NCBI RefSeq assembly: GCF_000024405.1
Contig: NC_013517.1
Coordinates: 3,937,989-4,001,988, forward strand
DNA from: Sebaldella termitidis ATCC 33386
GTDB lineage: Bacteria; Fusobacteriota; Fusobacteriia; Fusobacteriales; Leptotrichiaceae
Direction: 5' to 3'
Length of the DNA: 64,000 nt
Shown here one piece after another: positions 6,001 through 49,910 of the stretch. Positions within the stretch are counted from its first letter, which is position 1. Every line of letters starts with the position of its first letter. The notes under the pieces were generated by a model that saw only the letters and a program-made list of their open reading frames with translations, made no database searches and was not told the origin of the DNA. The position numbers and the translations under genes were made by a program.

Positions 6001-6502
6001 TCAAAGATAAGTTAAGTGGCTCTCTTGTCATTCCTTTTATTGGAATACTAACTCCAAGATTTATTTCTTTCGGCTGCTGCAGTGGTTTATGTGGTTTCCC
6101 TTCCAGTCCGCCTATCATACCGCTTGTTACAACATAATTTCCGTTATCATCATAATATCCAGTTACCTTTGAGTGATATTTTGCATTCTCCTTGGAATTA
6201 TCCACTCCTTCATTATATTCTTCATAAAACCCTGTAAAAAATACCTGCCATTCCAGATATTCAGGCTTTACTATATAATCTCCCTGTAGATACAAATCTT
6301 TTAATTCCTTATTTTTCTGATTTAATATTTTCTCTATTGTTTGGTAGGTTTTTTCATTTGAACTGCCTTTTTCCAGATTCTTTACTATTCCGTTATACAT
6401 TCGCTCATATCTTGCCGATTGTACTGTTTCTGCCTGTGCATAAGATGTTAGTATCGCATTCAGTGCTAGAAATGATACTAATAATTTCTTATTTCTTTTC
6501 AT
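1..6502 (-). CDS. Giant type Va autotransporter adhesin, 3' end cut by the window edge
   Basis: The frame is open from the ATG at 6502 to base 1, about 2167 codons with no stop. The product starts MKRNKKLLVSFLALNA, a Sec signal peptide. Next comes the fusobacterial autotransporter N-terminal domain (motif NKELKDLYLQGDYIVKPEYL). A long passenger follows, built of short Gly/Asn/Thr-rich beta-helix turns of the NNGTITIGDAGIGIYG type. The last visible part is the beta-barrel, ending at AWSAKPRA. By comparison with the paralogue at 15459-22571, roughly 100-120 barrel residues are missing beyond the edge. A GGAGG site precedes the start. The gene is last in an operon with three small secreted proteins, 12 bases after the preceding stop. 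The passenger presumably mediates adhesion or aggregation; the ligand is unknown. Confidence 0.93.
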   Translation of the reverse strand, partial: MKRNKKLLVSFLALNAILTSYAQAETVQSARYERMYNGIVKNLEKGSSNEKTYQTIEKILNQKNKELKDLYLQGDYIVKPEYLEWQVFFTGFYEEYNEGVDNSKENAKYHSKVTGYYDDNGNYVVTSGMIGGLEGKPHKPLQQPKEINLGVSIPIKGMTREPLNLSLSPAGEIVINPNTQNITPPTFSYNGSININEFSINLPSVDPPTINPVSIIPFSVPDTGNTDEQWVLNWSGSGHQIGSGSYQNAIIAQQDLSGGTLNIENNGGTYTADIANTTIVGKKGSTNTSTANGVLNGQWLNLNQAYILKIVGGVTSNIDNMEIVYQGNAGSTLTKPLFFTDAHNNGNRASIWSIGNATNITLKGENILLYSVQSHGSATDSGLENSGTIVADNLLSNSHDRIIFNTSYDNTINNNRYFYMTNNSSGLIELDGLRDLLVAVNVPGNINGGTYFTNDGEILLNGVESKGAILNPNAPNGTFNAQINNNPGGTKLTFNNPLKLRGDGSIGLAFLREINLGLSKLNLVIGDDRNKGYDASTYTTTKNLASTGNLAGNDSALVEDAIGIYYNVTQNISTFTNAERTLENYDITFGDYAKHSTLVRIDKGDLILGNSNISTINIGGDSGNFGFVVTGSNSSLEVRPDIQVGTSLKNSDNSIAAYAGNNGEITFSGTTVNTYGIGAHAFFAETGGTIKNNATILNRVNVTTVRDETATLFADGGSIIFNNGGDYKALGDKSLTVYADNGGIVTLRSGVGTNNYEVNTNGVLFYKDNLGEINIDATGGKAIMSVGDGSVFAISNGGTNKINFLGTAGDLEVTLKNGSTGFIFDSLGSPLSIAGINSALANNFSGLTNLDMTLDAGSRLFVVENYGTSDFSAVSSISLGTGIFNNVFDNGGKGMFLWKGVLKLDGIGTVNLDNASDPYFNVEKSVSGVEVDTGYVVNGTKDNQIGFADINPYSTVYVKMTNNGIISLTGKNTIGFYTDNGEINNNSTLNITGQGGLAIFGENDTKIKNTGTITIGDAGIGIYGISYQTPSSAQTYGNGKIDIENNGTIIAGVGSKAIGVYANNNKTGGILGDAQIKLLSGIVDVSASDSGIGVYVNKGTVTDLGSTITVGKNGVAFYAKDSHVTLTGTTINLFGDNSLGIYLDGVTNFNGSGDININGKNIVLFNMNSSGIISNNFNVTGIAPGSTYTIGNIVNGSFNYTGSSILSSNGVLVSGQYSSVFLNGSTITVNPGSTNVAAIALDGQAGTFVAGMSANTDGENNGTIILENVSVGLYGKNGARLKNTGGTITVGDQSAGIMTSGAGSTAVNTGIITVGSGSQGITLKDGADIINDTGAGIFSSGINSVGIYADNVTAPIINNGTIQLLGDKSIGIFTKGASVKAINNTGLIEVGNSSSINDPSIGIFSENAGDVITNTNTIKSGINSIGIYSAGGTVIQNGVSDIGNTGVGIYSTNGTVNVGGTSVFNFGTDNAVGVYAINSAVTNNATMNIGSGNYGFVLTNGTFTGGTGSVTMGSDSVYVYRSGLGTITNGSTVTMSGSDNIGFYIVDGGEIVNNANITGTIGNNNVGIYNVGGKIDNTGTIAVGASDLIILTDSDGVKSVDVQNSKYAVGVYGENSVITNQSLGNISIGYGSIGVVAKKGSAVNDGAITGTGDRMMGMYSEGATVTNNGTITLVGDDVIGMAGNGKGSVLINSSTGVINVSGQNAIGMYGNLKSEIINAGTIIANGPGAQGIVLSQGSTLDNTVSGTMIVNSITSGNYGSSVGTTYPTPSIINSGVIKVSEKFETDGINVVIKVDPSTVTVPTASEVTTGGYDPIAHGADYLISNATSIEAPSFNITNPLQITGNFAEGTNVKKYKLEDVIIPGSGNGIDAGLVPVVSKSLTWRATPVVNNSGNVDIWMEKIDYDEFTDGLWYEDFGRALDDKYFNAQGDALKIYDKIDVIETESDFRHVMASLAGNVYANINQREYDIAKAFEESLHLLQDSTNNTKENVKISVIAGKGKNKEETDGVTGYDYTTTGVLALREVERTYKHTFGYSLGYVHTGFEFKDGNESEEWVDTIQLGVHNKYRSNGWKIVNDLTGRASIHNVDRNIDWPSPLERSEMNGTYETYSITSDNILGKEFGLGKKASIMPYGAFRAMYVTRPTFNESGLEALEVEGNDAWSAKPRA

Positions 6503-6514
6503 TATTCCTCCCTG

Positions 6515-6781
6515 TTATCTTATATTATTTGCTGCTTTGTACTGTTCTATTCTAAATAATAAATCTTCTATTTCCTGTATCTCACTTACCTTTTTATCTA
6601 TCTGCCTGTCCACCTTTACCAGTTCTTTTTCCAGCCTTTGGCCGCTGTTCAGATGTTTTCTCAGATTTGTCCATTTTCCTCTTGCACCTTCCCTTAATTC
6701 TCTTTTATATTCATAAGTCGGTGCTGAATAAAGCATCGTTCCCATTACTGTCAAAAATATTAAGATTACTGTTTTTTTCAT
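6515..6781 (-). CDS. Small secreted coiled-coil protein (FadA-like size and architecture)
   Basis: This 88-residue protein has a clear signal peptide (MKKTVILIFLTVMGTMLYSA). The mature part is highly charged with heptad-like spacing (LEKELVKVDRQIDKKVSEIQ), so a short alpha-helical coiled coil is likely. It is the third gene of the operon and stops 12 bases before the giant autotransporter start, with a good ribosome site. Size and coiled coil recall the FadA adhesins of Fusobacteriota, but I see no definite FadA signature, so that is a guess. Co-transcription suggests a periplasmic or surface accessory of the autotransporter. Confidence 0.8.
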   Translation of the reverse strand: MKKTVILIFLTVMGTMLYSAPTYEYKRELREGARGKWTNLRKHLNSGQRLEKELVKVDRQIDKKVSEIQEIEDLLFRIEQYKAANNIR

Positions 6782-6799
6782 TTTACCTCCCTTAAAGCG

Positions 6800-7078
6800 C
6801 TATCTTCTTCTCATTCTGTTAATTTCTTCCGGCATCAGTTCCTCTTCCTCTGCTTTTACTCTGTCCAGTATTGTATACCAGTATCCTCTTTTTTCAGGAA
6901 GCTTTACATATACTGACTCCTGAGCTCTTCTCAAAGCTTTTTCATACGAGGAATAAACTCCGTCCTGATCATAGTCCTTTGTTATACTTTCTTCCACTGA
7001 TCTGTCTACTTTTATTTCCTCGCCAAAAGCCATCAATGACAGTGTTAACAGTGAAAAAATCAAAATTATCCTTCTCAT
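6800..7078 (-). CDS. Small secreted protein of unknown function
   Basis: The 92-residue product has a signal peptide (MRRIILIFSLLTLSLMAFG, cleavage probably after AFG). The mature domain is charged and mostly helical, ending in an Arg-rich tail (EEINRMRRR). AGGAGG overlaps the stop of the upstream gene, so the two are translationally close. It is second of four genes in the autotransporter operon. I do not recognise a family. Export and operon position suggest a partner in autotransporter biogenesis or surface display, which is inference. Confidence 0.8.
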   Translation of the reverse strand: MRRIILIFSLLTLSLMAFGEEIKVDRSVEESITKDYDQDGVYSSYEKALRRAQESVYVKLPEKRGYWYTILDRVKAEEEELMPEEINRMRRR

Positions 7079-7086
7079 TCTGCCTC

Positions 7087-7296
7087 CTACTTTTTAGATT
7101 TGTTAAGGTATTTCAACACCTTGTTATATTCTGTTTTATGCCAGGCTACATCTTTCTTGGCTCTATAGTTTTCTATTTTATCTGCTTTTTCCATTTGTGC
7201 TTCTATATTCGGAACTTCAATTTCCTGCTTATTTTTCTTAGCTGCCAGAGAGATACAGCTGACAATAATTAACATTGCAATTATACTTTTCTTCAT
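7087..7296 (-). CDS. Small secreted protein, first gene of the autotransporter operon
   Basis: I start this 69-residue protein at the ATG at 7296 because AGGAGG lies five bases upstream. An ATG 15 bases earlier would make that ribosome site part of the coding sequence. The N-terminus (MKKSIIAMLIIVSCISLAAK) is a signal peptide. It contains a Cys after VS, but the lipobox is poor, so signal peptidase I cleavage after SLA is as likely. The mature part is Lys/Glu-rich and helical. Its stop is eight bases from the next start. Function is unknown. Confidence 0.75.
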   Translation of the reverse strand: MKKSIIAMLIIVSCISLAAKKNKQEIEVPNIEAQMEKADKIENYRAKKDVAWHKTEYNKVLKYLNKSKK

Positions 7297-7345
7297 TAAA
7301 CCTCCTTTCAAAATAAGTTATATTTTATAAGTTTTTTTATATATT

Positions 7346-7506
7346 CGCCTTTGTTAAATTTTACGAATAGAAAATACATGTTTTAAGCGATTATTACAAG
7401 TCGGACAAATTATTATTCTTTTATTCTATTTACATTAAAATTGACTTTAAAGCTAAAATTTAGTAAAATATTTATATTAGTATATTCGTAAAATTTAACA
7501 AAGGCG
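7346..7506. repeat. 161-bp element with perfect 24-bp terminal inverted repeats (MITE-like)
   Basis: Bases 7346-7369 are the exact reverse complement of 7483-7506. The outer ends read CGCCTTTGTTAAA on each strand and the inner ends TTTACGAATA. The 113-bp middle has no ORF. Perfect long terminal repeats around a short non-coding core resemble a miniature inverted-repeat transposable element. TA lies directly after the right end and two bases outside the left end, so a target duplication is not clean. The alternative is two copies of a long operator flanking the operon promoter. Confidence 0.6.
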
Positions 7507-7892
7507 TACTTTTATTTAACCATTTGCTCAATATTATATTAGAATATTTTTTTATATTTTTTTATTATTCTATTTTTAATAAAAAAAAATTTTTCATTTT
7601 CAAAAATATGAATCAATCCATTATTAACAAAGAATAATATTTTAATTCAGAAAATAATTTCATATATAATATATAAATAACTTATTTCAAATTAATTATA
7701 TTTTCTATTTTTATTGTAAAAACAACTGTTTATACAACATAAATTGTAATACAATGGTTTTGTTTTATTATTCGAAATCAAGAGACATAAATGTAACTTT
7801 TCTCTATAAAATAATAAATAGAATTTTTACATTTTTATATTATTTATATCTTTATAATTTCTACTGTATACCTTATTTTTTCTACAGCAATA

Positions 7893-7980: not shown

Positions 7981-8394
7981 CTATACAGAAGCATGATGCC
8001 CCTCGGCAAATTGAACTAAATCCCACAGATTTCCGTACAAATCCTTGAAGACCGCTACTGTCCCGTATTCTTGTTCTTTAGGTTCTCTTACAAACTCTAT
8101 ATTTTTAGAAAGCATATCATTATAGTCCCTCCAAAAATCATCTGTTGCCAGAAATAAAAAGACTCTGCCCCCGGCCTGATTGCCTATAAATGTCTCCTGC
8201 TCCGGATTAGAGGGCTTTGCTAAAAGCAATGTTGTCCCCGCAGATCCTCGGGGTGCCACTATTACCCAGCGTTTATCCTGCTCTGGCTGATAAGTATCTT
8301 CAATAAGTGTAAAATGTAATTTATTCGTATAAAAATCTATGGCCTCATCATAATCTTTTACTATTAAGGCAATATGTGCCAGTGATTGTATCAT
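7981..8394 (-). CDS. VOC-superfamily (glyoxalase/bleomycin-resistance fold) protein
   Basis: The 137-residue protein has the paired beta-alpha-beta-beta-beta modules of the vicinal oxygen chelate superfamily. It opens with LAHIALIVKDYDEAIDFYTN and closes with FKDLYGNLWDLVQF, the usual positions for metal-ligand His and Glu/Asp. Known relatives include lactoylglutathione lyases, dioxygenases and drug-binding proteins, so the substrate cannot be told. It follows the GNAT gene by 52 bases and is last in the operon that begins with the DeoR regulator. The ATG has a GGAG about ten bases upstream. Confidence 0.85.
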   Translation of the reverse strand: MIQSLAHIALIVKDYDEAIDFYTNKLHFTLIEDTYQPEQDKRWVIVAPRGSAGTTLLLAKPSNPEQETFIGNQAGGRVFLFLATDDFWRDYNDMLSKNIEFVREPKEQEYGTVAVFKDLYGNLWDLVQFAEGHHASV

Positions 8395-8446
8395 ATCCCA
8401 ACTCCGTTCATAGTAATTTTATTTAATCCGATCCAAAAACCTGCGC

Positions 8447-8917
8447 TCAGACTACATGCAGCACAAATTTCTGACATGGATAATCAAATTCTTCAATTAA
8501 TTCACCTTCTTCAAAACCGCATTTTTTATATAAAATTCTGGCGGTTTCTCCTTTGGTATCTCCTTCTCTGTAAGTGGTAACCCATATATTACTGTTTTTG
8601 GGAAATTTCTTTACCATATTCCTGATTAAAGCTGTAGCCGTTCCTATTCCCCTGTATTCCGGGTGAACGGCAAGAAAAGATAAAATATTTTCTTTTACTG
8701 AAAAAAGCAATACTCCGATTATTTTATCTTTGACTTTTGCACACAAGGCTGTTTTAGACTCTATATTATCCAGCAGTATTTTTTCATACTCTTCCTTAAT
8801 TAATCCCGTAAAATCATTTTTTACCACATCTACCAATTTCATCCATTCATTTATGTCTGTTTTTTCTGCATATGATATATCATAGCCGGTTTGCTGACTT
8901 TTTTTATTTTCTTTCAT
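8447..8917 (-). CDS. GNAT-family N-acetyltransferase
   Basis: This 156-residue protein shows the GNAT core. Strand 4 is LSFLAVHPEYRGIGTATALI, where RGIGTA is the acetyl-CoA pyrophosphate loop. It is followed by a late ARILYKKCGFEEGE motif typical of these enzymes. The acceptor is unknown. An AAAGGAGG site precedes the ATG. The gene starts 15 bases after the DeoR regulator stop, so it is very likely co-transcribed with it and with the VOC gene downstream. Confidence 0.88.
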   Translation of the reverse strand: MKENKKSQQTGYDISYAEKTDINEWMKLVDVVKNDFTGLIKEEYEKILLDNIESKTALCAKVKDKIIGVLLFSVKENILSFLAVHPEYRGIGTATALIRNMVKKFPKNSNIWVTTYREGDTKGETARILYKKCGFEEGELIEEFDYPCQKFVLHVV

Positions 8918-8932
8918 GGTTTCCCTCCTTTT

Positions 8933-9706
8933 TTATTCCGCATTGTCAGGGGAAGCTATTATAATATCTGTTTTTTCACTGTATTTTTCCAAAATTTCTT
9001 TATTAATTTTATAATCAGTTATAATTCCGTCAATTTCATCCAGAGATGCTACTTTTTTGAAACCAAAATTGTCAAATTTAGTATGTTCACATACTATAAA
9101 TGTTTTTTTTGAATTTTTTATTATTATTTTTTTGGATTCTGCCTCAAGAGATGTGTAAGTACAGACTCCGAATTTAGAATCTATACCGTTTGTTCCTATA
9201 AAGGCTATATTATACCTGTTTTCAGAAAATTGAGTTACTGTAGCAGGTCCCTCCATAGAATTATGTTTATGGATAAAATTTCCTCCTGTAACCACAAGGT
9301 CAATTCCTTCTTTTTGCGAAATATAGATTGCCACATCAAGGTTATTAGTAACTATTGTAACATTTTTGGCAGTTATTTCTTTTGCTATTAATATAGTAAC
9401 AGTACTTGAATTCAGGCAAACCACGTCATTATCCTTTACAAGACTCGCAGCTTTTTTAGCAATAAGCTTTTTTTCCTCTATATAGGGATCTTCTTTCTCA
9501 TTATATGAAGTCGCGGGTATAGAATTTTCATTTAAAACTGCCCCCCCATGAGTTCTTTTTAATACTCCGGAAGCTTCGAGCGAATCCAGATCTCTCCTTA
9601 TTGTAGATTTGGCAACTCCAAAATATTCTACCAGCTCGTTTACTTTTATGCTCTTTTTTTTCATTAATTTATCAATAATTATCTGTTTTCTTTCTGCTTC
9701 TAACAT
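8933..9706 (-). CDS. DeoR/GlpR-family transcriptional repressor
   Basis: The product (257 residues from the ATG at 9706) has an N-terminal DeoR winged helix (VNELVEYFGVAKSTIRRDLD, residues about 20-40). A C-terminal sugar-phosphate sensor domain of the DeoRC type follows (VVCLNSSTVT, IVTNNLDVA, VVTGGNF). I prefer this start because TTTGGAGG sits just upstream; a start at 9727 would translate the ribosome site. It lies beyond the terminator of the PTS/DeoC operon on the same strand and probably senses a phosphorylated intermediate of that pathway. A perfect 18-bp palindrome at 9818-9835 may be its own operator. Confidence 0.92.
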   Translation of the reverse strand: MLEAERKQIIIDKLMKKKSIKVNELVEYFGVAKSTIRRDLDSLEASGVLKRTHGGAVLNENSIPATSYNEKEDPYIEEKKLIAKKAASLVKDNDVVCLNSSTVTILIAKEITAKNVTIVTNNLDVAIYISQKEGIDLVVTGGNFIHKHNSMEGPATVTQFSENRYNIAFIGTNGIDSKFGVCTYTSLEAESKKIIIKNSKKTFIVCEHTKFDNFGFKKVASLDEIDGIITDYKINKEILEKYSEKTDIIIASPDNAE

Positions 9707-9817
9707 TTTTCCTCCAAATAGTTTCACATAATATGATTCTTTTTACTTCATTCTACCACATTTCATCTTAATTTATCAACTTTATAACAAATAAAACCAT
9801 AAAGAATCAAAAATAAA

Positions 9818-9835
9818 TGATAAAAATTTTTATCA
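9818..9835. promoter_or_regulatory. 18-bp perfect palindrome, candidate DeoR operator
   Basis: The sequence TGATAAAAATTTTTATCA is fully palindromic and lies about 110 bases upstream of the DeoR regulator start. An AT-rich palindrome can arise by chance, so this is only a candidate autoregulatory site. Confidence 0.4.
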
Positions 9836-9936
9836 AAGCATAAGTTATCATAAAGCTGTAGAGAAAAAGCAGCAATATTTTATATCAGAAAAAACTAAAT
9901 ACTGTACTGCTGCTTCATAATATTCTCATATAAAAA

Positions 9937-9974
9937 ACAGGAAGAGAAAATTTATAAAAAATTTCTCTTCCTGT
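9937..9974 (-). terminator. Strong terminator of the PTS/DeoC operon
   Basis: The arms ACAGGAAGAGAAA and TTTCTCTTCCTGT are perfectly complementary, with a 12-base loop and then a T run on the minus strand. It separates the EIIA gene from the DeoR regulator. Confidence 0.88.
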
Positions 9975-10024
9975 CTGCTAAAAATAATATATCTCTAAAA
10001 ATTTTTTTATTTCATGAAAACTGT

Positions 10025-10489
10025 CTAATCTTCATATATTAATAAATCGTATACCTCATCAGGAGTTTTTGCTGATTTTATCCCGTTCATTATTTCCTCA
10101 TTGGATAAAGCTTCTACCAGTGATTTTAACACATCAATCTGTTTTTCAGGTTCAAGAATGCACAGCACAAAAATGAATTCAGCATTTATTTCATTTTCCT
10201 CATCTCCCACATCCTGAAATTTTACAGGATTAACAAGTCTTATACAGCTGACCGCTTCTTTTATTACATGTTCGGGATCAGTATGAGGAATCGCTACCTG
10301 AAACGGCTCTGTGGCAAGCCCTGTGGGAAATTTACTTTCCCTTTCCATAAGTGCATCAGAAAAACTGCTTTTTACATATCCCAATTCACCGAATCTTCTT
10401 CCTACCTCTCTAAATAATTCTTCCTTTGAATGAAAGTCAACATCCAGCCATATTAACTCTTTTTTCAAATTCAGTACACCTTGTGTCAT
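10025..10489 (-). CDS. PTS EIIA component, fructose/galactitol type
   Basis: The motif VAIPHTDPEH is the phosphorylation site of mannitol/fructose-type EIIA, with the active His near residue 69. It passes phosphate from HPr to the partner EIIB. Length (about 154 residues) is normal. The start is uncertain. I use the ATG at 10489. A GTG at 10501 or a TTG at 10468 are possible, and the latter matches the N-terminus of the second EIIA in this window better. It is the last gene of the operon, 22 bases after the cysteine-less EIIB-like gene, and is followed by a terminator. Confidence 0.9.
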   Translation of the reverse strand: MTQGVLNLKKELIWLDVDFHSKEELFREVGRRFGELGYVKSSFSDALMERESKFPTGLATEPFQVAIPHTDPEHVIKEAVSCIRLVNPVKFQDVGDEENEINAEFIFVLCILEPEKQIDVLKSLVEALSNEEIMNGIKSAKTPDEVYDLLIYED

Positions 10490-10511
10490 CTGTTTACACA
10501 CCTGCCTGTTA

Positions 10512-10811
10512 TCAATTTTTTATTTCAATATTCAATATCTCTTCTATCATTTTATTTCTATCCATCCAGCCGTACATAAGACCCATACCGTTTATTACAG
10601 GAAGCACCGATTCGATATTAAGCGTTCCCATTGCAAGAACCATATCGTTGCTTTCCTCGAAAGATGACAAATCCTTTTGTTCATAAGTATTAACCGTCGT
10701 AATAACAGGAGTTATATTTTCTTTTTTTAATATTTCTTCCAGTTCCTTTATTTTCTTTTCAAATTTATCCTGTGTCAGACCGCCTGCCATAAGAATTCTC
10801 AGCTCTTTCAT
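10512..10811 (-). CDS. EIIB-like PTS protein lacking the phosphorylatable cysteine
   Basis: The 99-residue protein aligns along its length with galactitol-type EIIB. It has an N-terminal strand and loop (LRILMAGGLTQ) and the family's C-terminal helix pattern (VLPVINGMGLMYGW then MIEEIL). Where EIIB has the catalytic Cys (VACGSG in the first gene of this operon), this protein has Gly (MAGGLT), and it contains no Cys at all. It therefore cannot carry phosphate in the usual way. A regulatory, structural or sugar-binding role is possible, which is inference. The ATG at 10811 is four bases after the DeoC stop; a TTG upstream is less likely. Confidence 0.75.
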   Translation of the reverse strand: MKELRILMAGGLTQDKFEKKIKELEEILKKENITPVITTVNTYEQKDLSSFEESNDMVLAMGTLNIESVLPVINGMGLMYGWMDRNKMIEEILNIEIKN

Positions 10812-10815
10812 AAAA

Positions 10816-11484
10816 TCACATTCCTGCTTCAAGCTCTTTTAAAATCTCCTGTGTTTTGCTTATTCCTATTCTGTCTGATCCGGCCTCTATCATTGCTATA
10901 CAGTCTGCATATGTTGATATCCCTCCGGCAGCTTTTACTTTCATCTTATCCGAAACAGACGCTCTCATTAATTTTATATCCTCCACAGTTGCACCACCCG
11001 GAGCAAAACCTGTAGAAGTCTTAACATAATGTGCACCTGCTTCTTCCGCCAGTTTACATGCAAGAGCAATTTCTTCCTTAGTAAGGTAATAATTTTCAAA
11101 AATAACCTTTACTATAGCCGGACTGGCTTTTACCACAGCCTCTATATCTTTTCTCACATCATCGGCTTCACCGTTTCTAAGTGCTCCTATATCTATAACC
11201 ATATCCATTTCTACTGCTCCTCTTGCATATGCATCTATAGTTTCCGCTACTTTTGAAAATGTAGTATGCGCTCCTGAAGGAAATCCAATAACAGTTCCTA
11301 TTTTTACATCCGTATCTTTCAAAATTTCATAAGCAAGATCAAGGTTGCAGGTATTAATACAGACAGCCGCACATTCATTTTCCTTTGCAAAATTCAGACC
11401 TGCCACTACCTCCTCTTTTGTAAGATTTGGTTTTAATAATGAGTGATCTACATACTTTAAAAATTCTTTTTTTGTCAATTTCAT
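10816..11484 (-). CDS. deoC: Deoxyribose-phosphate aldolase
   Basis: The enzyme splits 2-deoxyribose 5-phosphate into glyceraldehyde 3-phosphate and acetaldehyde through a lysine Schiff base. The 222-residue sequence has the TIM-barrel signatures: VEMDMVIDIG (Asp94), HYVKTSTGF (Schiff-base Lys155) and KAAGGI (Lys184). All key residues are present. AAAGGAGA precedes the ATG. It sits between the EIIC gene and the EIIB-like gene of a PTS operon. That position suggests it acts on the phosphorylated sugar or a product of it, rather than serving general nucleoside salvage, whose usual deo genes are absent here. Confidence 0.96.
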   Translation of the reverse strand: MKLTKKEFLKYVDHSLLKPNLTKEEVVAGLNFAKENECAAVCINTCNLDLAYEILKDTDVKIGTVIGFPSGAHTTFSKVAETIDAYARGAVEMDMVIDIGALRNGEADDVRKDIEAVVKASPAIVKVIFENYYLTKEEIALACKLAEEAGAHYVKTSTGFAPGGATVEDIKLMRASVSDKMKVKAAGGISTYADCIAMIEAGSDRIGISKTQEILKELEAGM

Positions 11485-11515
11485 AGTTTCATTCTCCTTT
11501 TGTTTTTAGTTTTTT

Positions 11516-12763
11516 TTATTTGAATAACGAGAAAAATTTAACAAGAAGCCACGTTATTAAATTTGCTCTGTCCAGATTTCCTATTAATGTCGCTCCGTCA
11601 GGCAGCGTTACTCCTGCTGTTTTTGCCATAATTGTTTCAGCAGGTGCAAGATTTGTAGCAAATACGAGTACAATTGCCATAACAATCGTAGATATCATCA
11701 AAGATCTTATTACGTTTCCTTTTGACATTGCCGTGATCAGACATACTATAAACGGAATAACAGCCAGATCAGCAAATGGAAGCAGCTGATTTCCCGGAAC
11801 AATAAAGGCAAGAATAATAGTAATCGGCACCATTAATAGCCCCACTGCTATAACTGACGGCTCCCCGAGAGATACTGCCGCATCCAGCCCGATAAAAATT
11901 TCCCGCCCTGCGAATTTCTTAGCCATGAATTCTCTTGCTGCCTCAGAAACAGGTATAAGTCCTTCCATTAATATTGCCACCATTTTCGGCATAATAAACA
12001 TAACAGATGCCATCGCAATTGCCAGCTTCAAAACTTCACTTACTCCAAAGCCTGCAAGAATTCCAAGTAATGCTCCTATGATTATTCCCATTATCATCGG
12101 CTCTCCGAATATTCCGAATTTTTTTCTGATCGTATCAGGACTTGCGTACAATTTGTTTATTCCGGGAATTCTGTCAAAAATCCAGTTAAGCGGAATAACC
12201 AGCGGCATGAATCCAAGAGCTGTCAGATGCGGAAAAGAAATTCCCGGCATACCGAAATAGTTTTCAATATATTTTTGTGTATAATCAGCCAAAAGAAGTG
12301 CGATGACTGCCGCAACACTGGCTGCCACCATTCCCCACATTACGCTTCCGCTTGTAGCAGTGACTGCTGCTCCTATAAATGAAAACTGCCAGAAATTCCA
12401 TAAATCCACATTCATTGTTTTAGTTAATTTTAAGGACAGCATTATAAAGTTAATAACAAGAACAACCGGAATCAGAAGACCGGCAGCAACCCATGCCCAT
12501 GATATAGCGGACATTGCAGGCCATCCTATATCAATAATGGTAAGATTCAGTCCCAGTCTTTCAGTCATTGCTATTGAAGCCGGTCCCAGCGAAGAGGTAA
12601 GAAGATTGATAACAAGATTGATTCCCGTAAAACCAATTCCGATAGTAATACCTGATCTGAATGATTTTGTAAAGCCTGCCCCCATTATCATGGCAAAAAC
12701 AAACATGATAATAGGAAGCATTACAGAAGCACCCAGACCCAAAATCCATTGTAATATTTCCAT
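11516..12763 (-). CDS. PTS EIIC permease, galactitol (GatC) family
   Basis: The 415-residue integral membrane protein has about ten hydrophobic segments. It shows GatC-family motifs: the N-terminal ILGLGASVMLPIIMF, then KTMNVDLWNFW, and EIFIGLDAAVSLGEPSVIAV in the second half. It translocates the sugar or polyol while EIIB phosphorylates it. It is the third gene of the operon, after EIIB and the aldo/keto reductase and before deoC. The substrate cannot be read from sequence; this family takes galactitol, arabitol, sorbose-like and unknown sugars. Confidence 0.93.
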   Translation of the reverse strand: MEILQWILGLGASVMLPIIMFVFAMIMGAGFTKSFRSGITIGIGFTGINLVINLLTSSLGPASIAMTERLGLNLTIIDIGWPAMSAISWAWVAAGLLIPVVLVINFIMLSLKLTKTMNVDLWNFWQFSFIGAAVTATSGSVMWGMVAASVAAVIALLLADYTQKYIENYFGMPGISFPHLTALGFMPLVIPLNWIFDRIPGINKLYASPDTIRKKFGIFGEPMIMGIIIGALLGILAGFGVSEVLKLAIAMASVMFIMPKMVAILMEGLIPVSEAAREFMAKKFAGREIFIGLDAAVSLGEPSVIAVGLLMVPITIILAFIVPGNQLLPFADLAVIPFIVCLITAMSKGNVIRSLMISTIVMAIVLVFATNLAPAETIMAKTAGVTLPDGATLIGNLDRANLITWLLVKFFSLFK

Positions 12764-12848
12764 TTATAAACCTCCATTTATAATTTTCTTTTATCATAAT
12801 AACCGGATATCCGGTTTTATTAATATCAATACGGAAGATTATGCAAAA

Positions 12849-13739
12849 TTATAATACTTTATGACCTTTTACCGCTGTCCATATCATAAACCACTGCTCG
12901 GGTGTAAGCTTATATTTTAGTGCTTCCACAGGCTTTCTTACATACTTCATTTCTCCCGAACCTGTTATCGGAACTACTTTCGCAGGATGTGAAAGCAGCC
13001 AGGCAAATGCAACCACATCTATAGAATCTGCTCCGATATCCTCTCTTACTATCTCCAGAGTTTCTCTCAAACGTACTTCTTTTTCTCCGTCGCCGGTAAA
13101 TATCTTACCGCCTGCCAGCGGAGACCATATCATAGGATGTATTCTCTCTTCAAGACACATAGGAATAGTCCCGTTTTCAAGGTTTTCCATATGCAGACAC
13201 GAAAGCTCGACCTGATTGGTAACAAGAGGTACATTCAGATAAGATTTCAGCATTTTATATTCATGCGGTAAATAGTTCGAAACTCCGAAGCTTTTTACTT
13301 TTCCGTCTTTATGTAATTTATCAAATGCTCTGGATACCTCTTCCGGGTCCATAAACGGATCCGGTCTGTGTAAAAGTAATGTATCCAGATAATCCGTACG
13401 CATATTTTTAAGTGATCTTTCTACCTGAGAAACAATGTATTTTTCACTGCTGTCATAATACTTTACTCTTACAGTTGCAGATGGATAGACTATTGTACAT
13501 TTTGTTACTATTTCCATCCTTTTTCTCAGATCGGGTCTTAATTCCAGCGCTTTTCCAAAAAGCTCCTCAAATGTATAATTCCCGTAGATATCAGCATGAT
13601 CCATTGTTGTTATTCCGATATCCATACATTCTTCCAAAAACTTAATAAGCTCTTCCGTGCTTAAGTTCCATTCATCCATCCTCCAAAATCCAAGAACAAT
13701 TCTTGAAAACATCAGATCTTCGGACATTTTGATTCTCAT
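12849..13739 (-). CDS. Aldo/keto reductase (YdhF-like)
   Basis: The 296-residue TIM-barrel oxidoreductase has the AKR pattern. ITTMDHADIYGNYTFEELFG carries the catalytic Asp and Tyr. LLLHRPDP carries the His. SFGVSNY and a late VVPITGSGE NADPH-binding region follow. These enzymes interconvert carbonyls and alcohols. Lying between EIIB and EIIC, it probably oxidises or reduces the sugar or polyol imported by the operon, for example a polyol phosphate to the sugar phosphate that DeoC cleaves. That step is inference. A GGAGG lies 11 bases before the ATG. Confidence 0.9.
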   Translation of the reverse strand: MRIKMSEDLMFSRIVLGFWRMDEWNLSTEELIKFLEECMDIGITTMDHADIYGNYTFEELFGKALELRPDLRKRMEIVTKCTIVYPSATVRVKYYDSSEKYIVSQVERSLKNMRTDYLDTLLLHRPDPFMDPEEVSRAFDKLHKDGKVKSFGVSNYLPHEYKMLKSYLNVPLVTNQVELSCLHMENLENGTIPMCLEERIHPMIWSPLAGGKIFTGDGEKEVRLRETLEIVREDIGADSIDVVAFAWLLSHPAKVVPITGSGEMKYVRKPVEALKYKLTPEQWFMIWTAVKGHKVL

Positions 13740-13868
13740 GATTAATAATACCTCCTATATTTTTTTATTATATTGTATTCCTTAATTGTCTCGAAAAATG
13801 TATATCCCAAAATTTCCTGTGCAGTGACATATTCACTTTTAATTTAAAATAACAGACTATTTGTAAGA

Positions 13869-14168
13869 CTAATTTGATCCTGCTATTTTTTTCAGCTTCT
13901 CTATAACATCAGAATCGGTTTTTTCTCTGTTTACTCCCGTTAAGTAATTAATGGCAAAAACATAAGGCGTTGTTACAGTATCAGGTATCTTTGTACTTGC
14001 TACAATCAGATCAAAATCTTTGGACATATTTTCTACCTGTACTACCTTTACCTGCTGTACATTAACGTTAAAACCATTCTCCTCGCATAACCTCTTTACT
14101 CTATCAGCAATAACAGTACTTGTAGCAACTCCGCTTCCACAGGCTACCAATATTTTATATGTTTTCAT
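13869..14168 (-). CDS. PTS EIIB component, galactitol type
   Basis: The 99-residue protein begins MKTYKILVACGSGVATSTVI. Cys10 in the CGSG loop is the phosphorylation site of lactose/galactitol-type EIIB. I start at 14168, where GAGGAGG is correctly spaced; an in-frame start 18 bases earlier would include the ribosome site. This is the first gene of the operon and follows a strong promoter at 14241-14268. It pairs with EIIC (11516-12763) and EIIA (10025-10489). Confidence 0.93.
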   Translation of the reverse strand: MKTYKILVACGSGVATSTVIADRVKRLCEENGFNVNVQQVKVVQVENMSKDFDLIVASTKIPDTVTTPYVFAINYLTGVNREKTDSDVIEKLKKIAGSN

Positions 14169-14191
14169 ACTTTTTCCTCCTCTCAATCTTT

Positions 14192-14240
14192 TTACAAACG
14201 ATCATTTGTTCACTATATGTTCTTATGTTCTTTCAGTAAT
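14192..14240. promoter_or_regulatory. Candidate operator region of the PTS/DeoC operon
   Basis: Between the promoter and the EIIB start lies ACAAACGATCATTTGT, an inverted repeat of ACAAA around six bases. On the minus strand there are also three GAACA repeats just after the expected transcription start. The divergent TetR regulator or the downstream DeoR protein are natural candidates to bind here. Confidence 0.45.
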
Positions 14241-14268
14241 ATTATACAATATTTTTTTATATTGTCAA
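14241..14268 (-). promoter_or_regulatory. Sigma-70 promoter of the PTS/DeoC operon
   Basis: On the minus strand TTGACA (14263-14268) is followed after 16 bases by TATAAT (14241-14246). Both hexamers match consensus exactly. Transcription would begin about 65 bases before the EIIB start. Confidence 0.75.
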
Positions 14269-14416
14269 CAAGGAATAAAATTTATTTTATATTAAAAGGC
14301 TGAAATATACTTTTTTTAGAGTAGTATCTGCATATAATTCCATTATTTTATAAATTTTGCCAGTTTTATATTTATTTGAAAAACTCAGGCTGCTCTTTGC
14401 TGTTTCTAAAAAATTA

Positions 14417-14461
14417 CGTAAAAATATAAATTTATCTTTGAATTCATATCATATTTTTACG
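14417..14461. repeat. 11-bp inverted repeat upstream of the TetR gene
   Basis: CGTAAAAATAT (14417-14427) is repeated in inverted form at 14451-14461, with 23 bases between. It lies about 100 bases before the TetR start. The word TATTCGTAAAA found at its right arm also occurs in both ends of the 7346-7506 element. It could be a binding site or a hairpin. Confidence 0.4.
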
Positions 14462-14563
14462 AATACAAAAATAAAACATAGATTTTTCAAATTTTTCATT
14501 ATATAATGTAATTGTATTTTTAGCTTCTTAATACTAATAATTTTTAAGAGAGGTGAGGCAAAA

Positions 14564-15127
14564 TTGGGTGTTAATACCAAAGAAAAAATTTTATCTGCCG
14601 CAGAAAAATTATTCATGGAAAATGATCATGAGGATGTTTCTGTCAGAAGAATATGTGCAGCAGCCGGAGTTTCTAACGGCTCATTTTATCATCATATAGG
14701 GTCAAAAGAAAATCTTATCAAAATGATTTACTATTCTTCTGATGAAATGGGAATAAAAATTTTCCTGCAAAAAAGTAAAAATAAAAATATTTTTGAAAAA
14801 ATAGAATTAATCGCTGATATTTATACAGATTTTGCTTTAAAATACGGGCCCAAATTTTGCAAACATATTATTTATCTGAAACTAAGCGATCACTTCATTG
14901 ATTCGGAAACTTATTTATTAGGCTCTCAGATGAAATTGCTTATTAAGGATGCTTATTCTAATAATTATTTTAATAATGAATATACCGAGAATTTTATTCT
15001 TTCTGTTTTTCTTACTACCATAAGAGGTTTTGCTTATGAATGGAGTACACAGAACGGAGAAGGCGATCTAAAAAAATACACCTTATCCGCAATAAAAATT
15101 CTGATCAATCAATTTAAAAATATTTAG
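14564..15127 (+). CDS. TetR/AcrR-family transcriptional regulator
   Basis: The 187-residue protein has the TetR helix-turn-helix at residues about 25-50 (VSVRRICAAAGVSNGSFYHH) and a C-terminal helical ligand-binding region. The start codon is TTG at 14564, with GAGGTGAGG six bases upstream; no ATG is suitably placed. It is divergent from the PTS/DeoC operon across a 395-base intergenic region, so local control of that operon is plausible but not shown. A terminator follows directly. Confidence 0.93.
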   Translation: MGVNTKEKILSAAEKLFMENDHEDVSVRRICAAAGVSNGSFYHHIGSKENLIKMIYYSSDEMGIKIFLQKSKNKNIFEKIELIADIYTDFALKYGPKFCKHIIYLKLSDHFIDSETYLLGSQMKLLIKDAYSNNYFNNEYTENFILSVFLTTIRGFAYEWSTQNGEGDLKKYTLSAIKILINQFKNI

Positions 15128-15458: not shown

Positions 15459-18400
15459 CTAAAAAACCGCTTTCAAAGTCAATCCTGCTCTGTATTCATT
15501 TTCACTGTTATTACCAGTTTTATACTCTCCTGTAAGAAAGATTCCGTATCTGTCCTCTATCTCTGCACCTATTATTGCTTTAGTACTTAGTACTCCTTTT
15601 TCTTCCTCCGGTTTTGACAGTTTATGATAATTCTGCTCTACATTTACCAATCTTGCATATTCTCTCTCATTGAAGTCACCCAGCTCATAACCGTAAGCTA
15701 TATCTACCGCACCTTTTAGTTTCCATTGTTTCTTTTCTCCCAATGGAAGCTCTCCTTTTAGTTCCATTCCGGCTTTCGGCATTATGCTCCACGCATTATT
15801 CCCCTGTACTTCCAGCGCTTCAAGACCATTTTCGTTAAATGCCGGTCTTGTAATATAAGTTGCATCTAATCCGCCGTATGGTGTTATGCTTGCATTTTTC
15901 CCAAGTGAAAGTTCTTTCCCTAATTTATTATCACTTGTTATGCTGTAAGTTTCATATGTTCCGTTCATTTCTGATCTTCCTGTATTTGTCCAGTCTATAT
16001 TTCTGTCTGTATTATGGAAACTCACTCTTCCTAACAAATCATTTCTTAATATCCAATCATTTGATCTGTATTTATTATGCAATCCGAGCTGTAATGTATC
16101 CGCATCCTCTTCACTGCTGTTTCCATCCAGCATTTCATAGTTCGTATGAAGATATCCAGCAGAGTATCCGAATGTATGTTTATATGTTCTTTCTACCTCC
16201 CTTAAGGCCAGCACTCCCACAGATTCATAGTTGTAACCTATTACACCGTCTGTATCCTCTGTCAGCTTTCCTTTTCCTGCTATCACATTTATTTTTACAT
16301 TTTCTTTTGTGTTATTTTTTGAGTCCTGAAGAAGATTTAACGATGTACCTAAAACATCTATTATTGTCTCCTCTCTCTGATTCATATTAGCATACATATT
16401 TCCTGATAAACTTGCCATTGTCTTTCTAAAATCACTTTCTGTTTCTATACTGTCCAGTTTGTCAAATATCTGTCCTGCTTTTCCCACAGAGCCGACATAC
16501 TTTTCATCCAGCGTACGGCCAAAGTCTTCATACCATAATCCTGATGTAAAATCATCATATGGTATTTTCTGCATCCAGATATCCACACATCCGTCCTCAT
16601 CCATTACCGGTGTCGCACTCCATGTCAATGATTTACTTTTTACTTTTACCAGTCCTGTATTTGGTCCTCCATGATCATCTGTCAAAGGATTAAATACATC
16701 TTCGAATTTATATACATCTGCATGTGTTCCGGCAGTAAATCCGCTTAAAATTCCTATCGGGTCTGTCGTATTAAATGTCGGTGCATAAAACTTTACCGCA
16801 TTTGATACAAAGGCTGCTCCGGCATCTGCTGCTATTGTTGGTGCTGTTATTGTTGCCGGGTCTACTTTTATTGATATATCTATTCCTTTTGTCTCAAAGT
16901 TTTCCGATACTCTTATTACTCCTGCATTTATTATACTTGGTATCGGATAGCTTGTTCCGCCGTATGATATATTCGTTGAACCTGTTACTCCTCCGGCTAT
17001 ATTCATTGTACCGCCGTTGATTATTTTTGATCCGCCTTTTAAGACTACTGCACTGCTGTTATTTCCGTTGACATTTATAGTTCCCTGATTATCCAGCGTT
17101 GAATTTATATTCAGCATTACTCCTGTAGAATCATCGTTATTCAGAGTTATTACGCCGTGGTTTACTATATCTGATGTCTTGTTTCCGTAGATACCTATAG
17201 AGTTCTTCCCTCCGAGTGTTATATCTCCGTAGTTCTCCACTTTGCTGTATTCTGCAAATATTCCTATTGCTCCGTCTGAGCTGCTCGTTATATCTCCATA
17301 GTTCTTTGCCGGCACTGATGCTTTCTTTGTATAAATTCCTACTCCGTTTGCTCCTACTGATATGTCCCCGTAATTTTCCATTACTGAATTATCTCCGTAA
17401 ATTCCTATTGCATAACTGTTTTTTGTAGAATCATTCGGATCTATTATTATTGAATCCCCTACTGATATATTCCCTGTATTATTTATACTTCCCCCATGGT
17501 TATATATTCCCATATTGGCCTGACCTGTTACACCTGTTATTAGAGCGCTGTTTACTATTGTACCGCCGTTTTCACTGTAGATCCCCACATTATTAGAACC
17601 TGTCATTGATATATTACCGTTATTTATTACTGTTCCTGCTCCGTCTGCATACACAAGCACTGCACTTTCTCCCAGTACTGCTGCTGTATTATTTGTCAGA
17701 TCAGCTCCTGATTTTAATGCATATCCGTAGCTTTCATTTCCTGTTATTGTTGTTCCGTTATTTACTACTGCAGCTCCGTTTAATGCATATACCCCCACTC
17801 CGTTGCCTGTCCCTGTCTCCAGTACAGATCCTGCTGTAAGGTTTACAGTTGCTCCGTCTGCATAAATTCCTGTTCCGTTTGATCCTGTTTTTATCTGTCC
17901 GTTTTGGTTTACTGTTCCTGATTTACTGTAAATTCCTACTGATGATACTCCTGTCTCCACTGTCCCGTTATTTGTTATTATATCTCCTGCATTATCACTG
18001 TAAATTCCTGTTCCGGGCTTTGATACATCTGATGAATTTCCTGTTTTTACTGTTCCTGTATTTACTATTGTTTTTATTCCTGTTCCTTTGGTATAGATTC
18101 CTCTTGAATCATTTCCCTGCATGTCTATTATTCCACTGTTATTTATTGACATTGCTGATGTACTTTCTGCATAAAGACCAGTCCCGCTTGCAGAAATCCC
18201 TGTTATATTTCCTGCATTTATTATACTTGTACTTTCATTTCCGTATATTCCTTCCGAACCTGCTCCCAATGTTATATTTCCGTCATTTGTAAGTGATGAA
18301 CCAGTTCCTTTCCCTGACATGCCTATTGAAGCATTTCCTACATTTATAGTTCCTTTATTCAGAAGTTTTGCCCCGTTTGTCCCGTACAAGCCTGCCGAAT

Positions 18401-21400
18401 TATCACCAAGAACTATTGAACCTCTGTTCTCCCCGTCTACAGCTGATGTAAATCCTGCAGGTGCTGTTCCTGTATACTGACCGTTTAGTACGGCTCCTAC
18501 TATATTTGATCCTGTCCCTGTTATATTTGATGATGTATCAAGAAGCACTGCCGAATTTGCCCCGTTTATCAAGCTTCCGTTTGCTCCTAAATTTGCTGTA
18601 CCATTATAATAAAATGTTCCGTTATTTACGTTTCCTACCACATAGCTTGAGCCTGCTGTTGATGTTACGTTAAAATTATTTGCAAAGCTTCCGCTTGAAT
18701 TTGTATTAAATAATGCTATGTTCTGACCATCTACATTTATGTTTCCGCTTCCCGAGAAGTTTGTTGTCCCGTCAAGATAGAATCCTAATGCATTGTTTCC
18801 ATAAAGATTCAGTGTCATACCTGTCAGATTTACATTACTGTCTTTAGCATACATTCCAAGTCCGTTTGCTCCTACTGTTACTGTTCCGCCACCTGTTACA
18901 TTTGTATTATTTGCATATACTCCTACTGCTCCGTTTGATGTTCTAAGGTCTATATTTGAGCCTGAACCTAATATTACCGAAGATGCTGCTCCCGCTGTGT
19001 TATCCGCATAGATTCCGTATACTTTGTCTGTACCTGTCGAAGTTATCTTTCCGTTATTATTTATATTTATACTATCATCTCCATAACCCAATACTGTTGA
19101 TGATGTTACTCCGTCAAGATAATTTACTCCGTAGATTCCTGCTGTATCTGATCCCCCTATTACTACTTCACCGTTATTTTCTGTTAATGTTCCGTTTGCA
19201 GATACTATTCCTATTGAATTTGATCCTGTTGTCCGGATTTTATTAATATTTATTACATGTCCGTAATCCGCTGCTATCCCCACTGAATTACTTCCTGAAA
19301 GATCTATTACTCCTGCATTATCCAGTTTTATTTCATTTATTCCTGTTGTTCCGCTGTAGTTTTTCTGTGCAATTCCTATCTGTCCATTTTGTGTTCCCGA
19401 TAATGTTGTCCCGCTGTTTACATCTACTGATACTGATGTAAATTCTGATCTTTTGTATATGTCGGAACTGTTATCAAGATTTACACTTCTGTCCAATACA
19501 AGAGTTCCTTTATCCATTGATAATGGTATATAGTCACTTACACTCGCACTGTTTATTTCTACATTTGGAGTAAGAAGAGAACCGGGTGCTGACATACTGT
19601 CTATTGCTGTTAAGTTCATTGTCGTTCCTTTTCCTTCAAGTATGTACAGTTTTGATCCTGACTGCATTGTTAAATCCAGTTTTCCGCTTCCTGTAAATGA
19701 ATTATTTAAATACCCTGTCAGAGACTGCCCGTTCTTCACATAAAAGGCATTTCCGCCGTTTTCTACTGTTGCTGCTACTGTTCCGGTCATGTTGTATTTC
19801 CCTGCAAGTCCTGCTGTATCATAGTTATAGAATAAAAGTCCTTTATTTCCCGACTGTAATGTTAGTCCCTGTGAAAGATTCATTACGGAGTTTCTATCTG
19901 AATAAAGTCCTATTCCTCCGTTTTCTACCCTTACTGTTCCTCCAGAAAGATTAGTATCAAGGTTTGACAGTGCACTGTATACTCCTACTGCTGCTGCTCC
20001 GTCTGCTGTTATTTTTCCGCTTACCATATTAAATTTTTCATTATTATATACACCAAGGTTATGAGCCTTTACATTTACTGTTCCTCCAGAAAGTTCCCCG
20101 TATCCTGTTGCTTTTACTGCTATTCCTGTATTATCAGTTCCGTTAACTGTTATTACTCCGTTTTTATGATAAAATATACCGTTATTTTCTATCTGAGTTC
20201 CTACCTGCTCTGTTCCATCGATATTTAATATCATTCCGTCAGTAGTCACCTGTGCATTATCTCCTGAAATATATATTCCTGCATTATTTTTACCGCCTGC
20301 AAGAAGATTTATTTCATGATTAGTAGAAGCATCAGATGATGAACCAAGTATTACATCCCCGTATTCCTCTACTCTTAATCCTGCACCGCCTCTTGAGTAT
20401 GAACCTACATTTAGCAGATAGTCTGATAATGTAAACTGCGGGTTATCTATATGGCTTGTTGATATATTTATGTTATTTGCCGGATTAACCTGATCATATA
20501 CATACTTAGATTCATAAATTACATTCCCGGTCATATTAACATAGATACCAGCTGAGCCGTCAGTATACAAGGCATCTCCGCCTGCTGCATTACCGCTGTT
20601 TTCCAGTCCGTTAACACCTGCTGCGTTTACTACATTCTGTCTTGGATCTTCCGTACCAATATCAAGTTTTATTTTGGAATTGGCAAAATTAAGTTCTCTT
20701 TCTATATCAACACCTATACTTTGGTCTCCAAGTATTGTAAGAGGATTATTAAATCTTATTTCTGTTCTTTGAAGACCGTTGCCTATTCCTTTACTTTTAT
20801 TCCAGCTTGTTGTATAGTTATACTCATTGTTATATTTGTTCATTAACGGGGCATTATTGGTATACACTCCGATATTATTGTTCCCGTAAAGTTTAATATC
20901 ACCGCTGTTCATCAAAAAATGCTTTCCGGGATTATCATTTATATTGTTATTTCCGTAACTGTCTGAGTTTTCAGAATAGTCATATGAAGAAGCATTACTT
21001 GTCATAAGATAGATTACACTTTGAGGTGCTCTCATTTCTATTGTTCCTGTATTATCAAAACCTTCCTGTTTTCTCTGGGCTGTTCCTTCCGTAAACATAA
21101 ATGCAACCTGTTTTCCGATAAGATTATTCGTACTGCTTGCTTCATTTAATCCTGTTATTTTCCCTTTATTCATAAAGATGCTGTCTGCATCTGACCATCC
21201 GCCGTGAGCCTGTATATTTACCCCTACTACATTGGATCCTTTCAGATTCCATGTACTGTTGTTCTCTACATATTGAAATGGTCTGTTTGCTGTAGTATGA
21301 CCAAGTGCAGTATCCAGAAATTTTCCGGCCAGTTCTGATTTTTCCGCTGATGTTATCCAGCTTCTTTCCTCAAGTTCATCAAGTGTATATGTTTTCCACA

Positions 21401-48567: not shown

Positions 48568-49890
48568 TCAATCTGCAAGTGCTTTTTTTCTGTTATAATA
48601 TACAGCACCCGCTGCCAATGCCAGAAGACACACTATTCCTATTATTCCGAATCTCATAAACTGTGTAATAACCCAGTCAAAAACATTTCCTACTGCCAGT
48701 GCCGATATCTTTGCATCTCCCTGTGTAAGCCCCAGCTGTCCGTCTACTGCCATCTGTGTAAAGTACGGTGCAAAATAGCTCGCTATCAGTAAAACTATTA
48801 CCATATTTATTACAGAGCTTATAAGTGTTCTAAGCATATCACCCTTATGTATTACAGTAGCCATACATATAAAGAACGGTTCAAACGGAAGATCAGCCAG
48901 CGGAAGCACTGTATTTCCGGGAAGTATAGCCGCTATCAGTATCATTATCGGTATTAATATTATTCCTACGGATATTGTGGTAGGATGTCCCAAGGTAACC
49001 GCCGAATCCATCCCGATATAGAATTCCTTTCCTTGAAAATGTTTATTAAAGAATTTTTTTGCTGCTTCTGAAATCGGCAAAAGTCCTTCAACAATAATTT
49101 TTATCATTCTCGGAAACAGTATCATAATTCCTACTACTGCTATTATCAGAGTTAATGCGTCTCTCAGTCCGTATCCCGCAAGCAGGCTGAATAAAATTCC
49201 CAAGGCTATTCCTATTATTACAGGATCTCCTATCATTCCGAATTTTTTTTGAATAAACTGTGAATCTATTTTTTTATTTTTCATAAAGGGTATTTTGTTA
49301 TAGAGACATTCAAGCAGATAGAACAGTGGTACTGTACTTGCCCCGTATCCCTGACATATGGATATTCCGTCTATCCCAATTATATTCTGTACCCTTTTGG
49401 CTGTAAAATCAGCTGATATGAGACAGAACGCCGCATGAAACATTGCTCCTGCTAAGCCGAATATAAGACTTCCTGTCATCAGATAAACTATTGATCCTGT
49501 AATCGAATAATGCCAGTAATTATAAATATCAATATTCATTGTCTTAGTTACTCTCAAAAAAAGCAAAACTATATTCAGAACAAATATTACCGGAATTACC
49601 AAGGCTCCCACCGCTGTGGCATATCCTACACCTGATGCAGTTCCCGAGCCTACATCAATCACATTCAGATTTAATCCGAATCTTTTTACCATAATATCTA
49701 CTGCCGGGTTCAGATACTGCACTACCACGCCGACCACAAGATTCATTCCCAGAAAACCTACTCCGGCTGTTACTCCGGCTTTTATTGATTTTAGAAAGCT
49801 CAGTCTGAAAAGAAGAGCCACCAAAATCAGTACAATCGGTACAAAAACCATACCTCCGAGACTCAAAATATAGTTAATAAATCCCTGCAT
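48568..49890 (-). CDS. sgcC: PTS EIIC permease, galactitol (GatC/SgcC) family
   Basis: The 440-residue membrane protein resembles the EIIC at 11516-12763 in layout and motifs: ILSLGGMVFVPIVLI, KTMNIDIYNYWHYS and EFYIGMDSAVTLGHPTTISV. It extends about 25 residues further, with an extra C-terminal helix and a basic tail. It transports the unknown substrate of the sgc pathway. It follows sgcB by 20 bases. Confidence 0.92.
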   Translation of the reverse strand: MQGFINYILSLGGMVFVPIVLILVALLFRLSFLKSIKAGVTAGVGFLGMNLVVGVVVQYLNPAVDIMVKRFGLNLNVIDVGSGTASGVGYATAVGALVIPVIFVLNIVLLFLRVTKTMNIDIYNYWHYSITGSIVYLMTGSLIFGLAGAMFHAAFCLISADFTAKRVQNIIGIDGISICQGYGASTVPLFYLLECLYNKIPFMKNKKIDSQFIQKKFGMIGDPVIIGIALGILFSLLAGYGLRDALTLIIAVVGIMILFPRMIKIIVEGLLPISEAAKKFFNKHFQGKEFYIGMDSAVTLGHPTTISVGIILIPIMILIAAILPGNTVLPLADLPFEPFFICMATVIHKGDMLRTLISSVINMVIVLLIASYFAPYFTQMAVDGQLGLTQGDAKISALAVGNVFDWVITQFMRFGIIGIVCLLALAAGAVYYNRKKALAD

Positions 49891-49910
49891 GTTATCCTCC
49901 TTCTATTTTA

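Follow-up and report, generated by a model that had tools for sequence, protein, structure and literature searches.

A PTS operon with a DeoC-family aldolase, an aldo/keto reductase and a predicted cysteine-less GatB-like protein in Sebaldella termitidis and two Treponema MAGs: a possible route for deoxy-sugar catabolism

We identified in Sebaldella termitidis a six-gene phosphotransferase system (PTS) operon that combines a Gat-type PTS with a DeoC-family class I aldolase, an aldo/keto reductase (AKR) and an EIIB-like protein (P5), five of whose genes recur contiguously in two Treponema metagenome-assembled genomes (MAGs). Each of its parts belongs to a known family, and the operon as a whole lacks the features that define galactitol, nucleoside-salvage and DeoK-type systems. 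A joint catabolic function is very probable. As to its nature, we hypothesize, with a probability of roughly 0.4, that the PTS takes up a deoxy-sugar, that DeoC cleaves the resulting sugar phosphate and that the AKR reduces the carbonyl released. If so, the operon would represent a further entry to deoxy-sugar catabolism, beside the kinase/aldolase and oxidative routes, and would mark a nutrient contested by termite-gut bacteria of two phyla. A search of the open literature returned nothing usable on this gene set, on a deoxyribose PTS or on the glycyl-radical route; a previous reading of the same DNA from sequence alone (hereafter, the sequence-only reading) had known of no textbook pathway with this set, and the search likewise yielded no described one.

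Organization of the operon

The window, the whole stretch of 64,000 nucleotides that was analyzed, is part of the 4.42-Mb chromosome in a Fusobacteriota genome of 4.49 Mb and three contigs. On its minus strand, six closely spaced genes with intact reading frames (6/6) lie in the place and order given by the sequence-only reading. They encode a PTS EIIB of GatB type with an intact cysteine P-loop, ACGSGVATST (14168-13869; PF02302, 48.1 bits, 1.8e-12); a YdhF-like AKR (13739-12849; PF00248, 175 bits, 2.3e-51); an EIIC permease of the galactitol (Gat) superfamily (12763-11516; PF03611, 305 bits); DeoC (11484-10816; TIGR00126, 223.7 bits against a cut-off of 117.3); the 99-residue P5, assigned a GatB fold without the phosphorylatable cysteine by a family profile and AlphaFold/Foldseek (10808-10512); and a GatA-like EIIA (PTS_EIIA_2) with the histidine motif IPHTD (10501-10025; PF00359, 118 bits, 3.4e-34). 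The six genes are apparently co-transcribed. Upstream of EIIB, a sigma-70-type promoter is predicted on the same strand (14241..14268; TTGACA-16-TATAAT, a 12/12 match to consensus), and between its -10 element and the EIIB start lies a near-palindrome, ACAAATGATCGTTTGT (14194..14209, minus strand), a candidate operator.

The sequence-only reading had also listed a divergent TetR and a downstream DeoR with the operon. Both regulators are present, and only the first seems to belong with it. The TetR-family gene (14564-15127, plus strand; PF00440, 1.3e-12) is likely the local regulator, judged by position alone, and the palindrome is possibly its operator, such palindromes being common enough by chance. 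The DeoR/GlpR-family gene (9727-8933, minus strand; PF00455/PF08220) lies in a unit downstream that also includes GNAT and VOC genes. Because a strong intrinsic terminator intervenes between EIIA and DeoR (9936..9975, minus strand; a 14-bp stem with an inner stem and a U-run, z = -4.1 against shuffles), transcription of the operon probably stops after EIIA, and the DeoR, GNAT and VOC genes probably form a unit of their own.

Recurrence in Treponema and horizontal transfer

Scanning a genome collection of 84,980 species with an EIIC peptide pattern, which reaches close relatives only, we found two relatives, both in Treponema MAGs. The genome-neighborhood comparison that the sequence-only reading had proposed as a check bore out its grouping: EIIB, AKR, DeoC, P5 and EIIC are contiguous in both MAGs (2/2), with EIIC placed after P5 rather than before DeoC as in Sebaldella. 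Identities to the Treponema orthologues are 75-79% for AKR, 71-74% for EIIC (at most 50-51% to any other EIIC found), 63-71% for EIIB and 58-61% for P5, and in the AKR, EIIC and DeoC trees Sebaldella and the two Treponema form a clade with 99-100% support in each. Among 97 other Fusobacteriota genomes, none yielded the gene set. P5 is missing from 392 of the 394 genomes searched in the Treponema order and had no match in plasmids. Since the same parts occur in a different order in a different phylum, the pattern points to one function and to horizontal transfer of the operon among termite-gut bacteria. On this cross-phylum recurrence we reject a chance neighborhood.

S. termitidis is a sugar fermenter isolated from termite hindgut (PMC3035275), and the Treponema MAGs bear the sample codes Gsp477 and Pc512, which in a separate paper belong to Glyptotermes and Prorhinotermes canalifrons, both lower termites (PMC11707648); the MAGs are linked to these hosts through the shared codes. 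Within Sebaldella, the DNA of the window at about 7.5-15.4 kb had no substantial match, short EIIC stretches excepted, in three other genomes, all of them fragmented and two less than 90% complete. Both flanks of this segment match repeated gene families in other Sebaldella genomes; the flanking segments, a large autotransporter-type gene (15459-22571) and about 6021-7517, have many DNA matches there.

A DeoC distinct from the nucleoside-salvage enzyme

DeoC enzymes carry out a Schiff-base aldol cleavage yielding glyceraldehyde-3-phosphate (G3P) and a small carbonyl; in the DERA reaction, deoxyribose-5-phosphate gives acetaldehyde and G3P. By alignment, the window DeoC keeps the equivalents of D16, C47, D102, K167 and K201 of Escherichia coli DERA, including the Schiff-base lysine, the second lysine and the proton-relay aspartate (K155, K184 and D94, and also D13 and C42). 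Group-specific changes are present in the DeoCs of this operon type (T15S, N98D and T208I), as is a K/R after the phosphate-site serine (ISK/ISR), which some of the other compared DeoCs share. Together these substitutions could reflect a preference for another substrate.

The genome encodes three DeoCs besides the window copy, which is 39-45% identical to them versus 75-77% to the two Treponema proteins. One (C1:1926654) belongs to a canonical operon for nucleoside salvage, whose genes also encode an ABC transporter, pyrimidine-nucleoside phosphorylase (pdp), phosphopentomutase (deoB), purine-nucleoside phosphorylase (deoD) and cytidine deaminase (cdd). A second lies in an operon with mannitol-1-phosphate dehydrogenase, a fructose-type PTS and a zinc-type dehydrogenase (C1:3597852-3602888), and the third is found with a mannose-type PTS, a DeoR regulator, a glycyl radical enzyme and its activase (C1:3414005-3421777), an operon that might serve an anhydro-sugar or 1-deoxyketose route. 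The window operon resembles the deoxynucleoside salvage operon (deoA/pdp-deoC-deoB-deoD-cdd) in having a DeoC-family aldolase but lacks the nucleoside phosphorylase, phosphopentomutase and nucleoside transporter, all of which are present at C1:1926654. The window DeoC is thus distinct from the salvage DeoC, and the salvage explanation is ruled out by the location of that operon at another locus. The loci around other DeoC relatives, among them ABC sugar and microcompartment loci, gave no pointer to the substrate. In one Treponema locus, L085 (G099:C105), two DeoC-like genes accompany microcompartment-type shell proteins and an aldehyde dehydrogenase, as judged by eye from the translations.

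A Gat-superfamily PTS outside the galactitol subfamily

In a PTS of this kind, EIIA and EIIB relay phosphate from phosphoenolpyruvate (PEP) onto the substrate carried in by EIIC. All three components of the operon score below the galactitol cut-offs: the best NCBIfam match of EIIB is the galactitol IIB PRK10310 (1.3e-14; 54.4 bits versus a cut-off of 95), EIIC reaches 476.7 of the 542.2 bits required by TIGR00827, and EIIA matches PRK09665 (2.3e-24) with 85.8 bits, under the galactitol equivalog cut-off of 139. We therefore place the PTS, on these profile scores, in the Gat superfamily (PF03611) but outside the galactitol subfamily. Its likeness to galactitol/D-arabitol Gat-PTS operons lies in the Gat-family EIIA-EIIB-EIIC set, whereas polyol-1-phosphate dehydrogenase, tagatose kinase and tagatose-bisphosphate aldolase are missing. 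Galactitol-1-phosphate dehydrogenase and tagatose-phosphate enzymes are absent among the ten proteins at 7981-15127, and, in contrast to sibling Gat operons, the operon has no polyol-phosphate dehydrogenase, sugar kinase or bisphosphate aldolase. On gene content and the subfamily cut-offs we reject a galactitol/hexitol operon. A second Gat-type EIIC/EIIB pair lies elsewhere in the window (about 48655-50186), beside an M42-type peptidase-like gene and an EIIA.

Two outcomes had been named in advance as fatal to a dedicated pathway, namely, a DeoC specific for nucleoside salvage and a PTS for a standard hexitol. Neither appears to hold, given the salvage copy at C1:1926654 and the absence of the polyol-1-phosphate dehydrogenase and tagatose kinase/aldolase. 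The proposal of a coherent PTS-DeoC-AKR unit gains instead from the retained class I aldolase residues and from the recurrence of the set across phyla.

The aldo/keto reductase

AKRs normally work as NAD(P)H-dependent carbonyl reductases. The window AKR has the catalytic tetrad D46, Y51, K79 and H123 (alignment numbering), which is invariant in the AKR alignment; its profile matches in the PDB are 4r9o, 7twz and YdhF (1og6), and it is about 47% identical to a plasmid protein annotated as YdhF. It shares the AKR fold and tetrad with E. coli YdhF and YdhF-like AKRs but differs in being fixed in a PTS-DeoC unit, whereas the two plasmid relatives examined (from Haliovirga and Klebsiella) have no adjoining PTS or DeoC. 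To our knowledge, YdhF-type AKRs have no assigned physiological substrate.

Proposed pathway and alternatives

In the scheme we favor, whose substrate, product and AKR direction we infer, the Gat-type PTS (EIIA, EIIB and EIIC) would import a deoxy-sugar and phosphorylate its terminal carbon from PEP, and DeoC would cleave the sugar phosphate via a Schiff base to G3P and a C2 or C3 carbonyl. Reduction of this carbonyl by the AKR with NAD(P)H would then pull the aldolase towards cleavage and rebalance redox for a fermenting cell. Free 2-deoxy-D-ribose would be the simplest substrate, converted through 2-deoxyribose-5-phosphate to G3P and acetaldehyde and on to ethanol; the PTS would stand in place of deoxyribokinase, and the route would be redox-balanced for a fermenter. 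That 2-deoxyribose itself is the substrate is possible, although we regard it as doubtful; acetaldehyde is usually reduced by alcohol dehydrogenases. If the substrate is right, the operon would share with the Salmonella-type DeoK/DeoC kinase/aldolase pathway the DeoC cleavage to G3P and a small aldehyde. It differs from that pathway in lacking both a deoxyribokinase and a non-PTS sugar permease, in relying on the PTS for phosphorylation and in having a built-in AKR. According to a study published in 2019, only the kinase/aldolase route for deoxyribose was known besides the oxidative route described there (PMC6365646).

Intact catalytic residues in DeoC, AKR, EIIA and EIIB, the cross-phylum unit, the lack of the kinase, polyol-phosphate dehydrogenase and bisphosphate aldolase and the separate salvage DeoC count for the deoxy-sugar scheme. 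Counting against it are the group-specific DeoC changes, the YdhF type of the AKR, the lack of a place for P5 and the fact that the closest Gat EIICs with annotated neighbors are mostly in polyol operons, which favors a polyol substrate. In the corresponding route, that of the sequence-only reading, which we consider rather unlikely, the PTS would import a deoxy-polyol such as 2-deoxyribitol, or another polyol, and the AKR would oxidize the polyol phosphate, yielding the aldose phosphate for cleavage by DeoC. Sibling Gat EIICs on plasmids do lie in operons with galactitol-1-phosphate-type dehydrogenases, the AKR is the only oxidoreductase in the window operon, and the paralogous operon that joins mannitol-1-phosphate dehydrogenase, DeoC and a fructose-type PTS in the same genome indicates that the combination of PTS, polyol-phosphate dehydrogenase and DeoC does occur. 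AKRs, however, strongly favor reduction, so that oxidation followed by aldol cleavage would amount to two uphill steps, and 2-deoxyribitol is uncommon as a natural substrate. We prefer the scheme with the AKR as a reductase because reduction is downhill.

The AKR would also act as a reductase if DeoC were specialized for a 1-deoxy-ketose phosphate such as 1-deoxyfructose-6-phosphate, cleaving it to G3P and hydroxyacetone, which the AKR would convert to 1,2-propanediol. AKRs reduce hydroxyacetone-like carbonyls, the group-specific DeoC substitutions would fit such a specialization, and the glycyl-radical operon described above, in which another DeoC of the genome accompanies a mannose-type PTS, is consistent with such a route. 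The operon, however, has no enzyme making a 1-deoxy-ketose, and the window DeoC does not group in the tree with that of the glycyl-radical operon, leaving this specialization unlikely. Membership of EIIC in the galactitol superfamily would also suit an ordinary hexitol PTS with DeoC and AKR as mere neighbors sharing no function; given a set that recurs, rearranged, in another phylum, genes that are closely spaced and apparently co-transcribed, and the absence of hexitol enzymes nearby, we regard this as very improbable.

P5, a predicted cysteine-less GatB homologue

Searched alone, P5 matched no Pfam or NCBIfam family convincingly. A profile built from P5 and its distant cysteine-less homologues matched GatB structures (5gqs, 8.5e-11; 1tvm, 4.4e-7), profile-profile comparison (hhalign) with EIIB gave a probability of 91%, and a modest AlphaFold model (pLDDT 73.5) had GatB 5gqs as its best Foldseek match (E of about 1e-3). 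Profile and model thus identify P5 as homologous to GatB but lacking the phosphorylatable cysteine. At the cysteine position of the P-loop, the DeoC-operon group has G and the other group has T, S or A, the cysteine being replaced in all members. The sequence-only reading had correctly listed an EIIB-like gene here but overlooked the loss of the phosphorylatable cysteine, because of which P5 is not an ordinary EIIB.

Gat-type operons with a P5-like protein also encode a normal EIIB with the cysteine intact. In Sebaldella, cysteine-less GatB-like members occur in three PTS operons, namely, the DeoC operon, one with a Gat-PTS, a short-chain dehydrogenase (SDR) and a 2-oxoacid dehydrogenase that is also present in Treponema genomes, and one with a sorbitol-type PTS beside an E1-alpha gene. 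The occurrence in a sorbitol-type PTS operon implies that P5 is more than a surplus EIIB of Gat permeases; that it acts as a regulator or adaptor is our guess. We advance tentatively the fuller proposal that a deoxy-sugar PTS replaces deoxyribokinase ahead of DeoC, that a cysteine-less EIIB-like protein serves beside it as an adaptor or sensor without transferring phosphate, and that termite-gut bacteria of different phyla share this arrangement. The P5 family, EIIB homologues unable to hold phosphate on the usual cysteine and yet retained in PTS operons, bears on the regulation of such operons. Outside the DeoC operon, cysteine-less GatB-like proteins are encoded in PTS operons at L043 4984-5256 (C1:38983-39255), L184 1498-1770 (C1:4012054-4012323), L136 3140-3418 and L138 2730-3005, each near a short-chain dehydrogenase or a 2-oxoacid dehydrogenase E1-alpha gene, and they are conserved in Sebaldella and Treponema.
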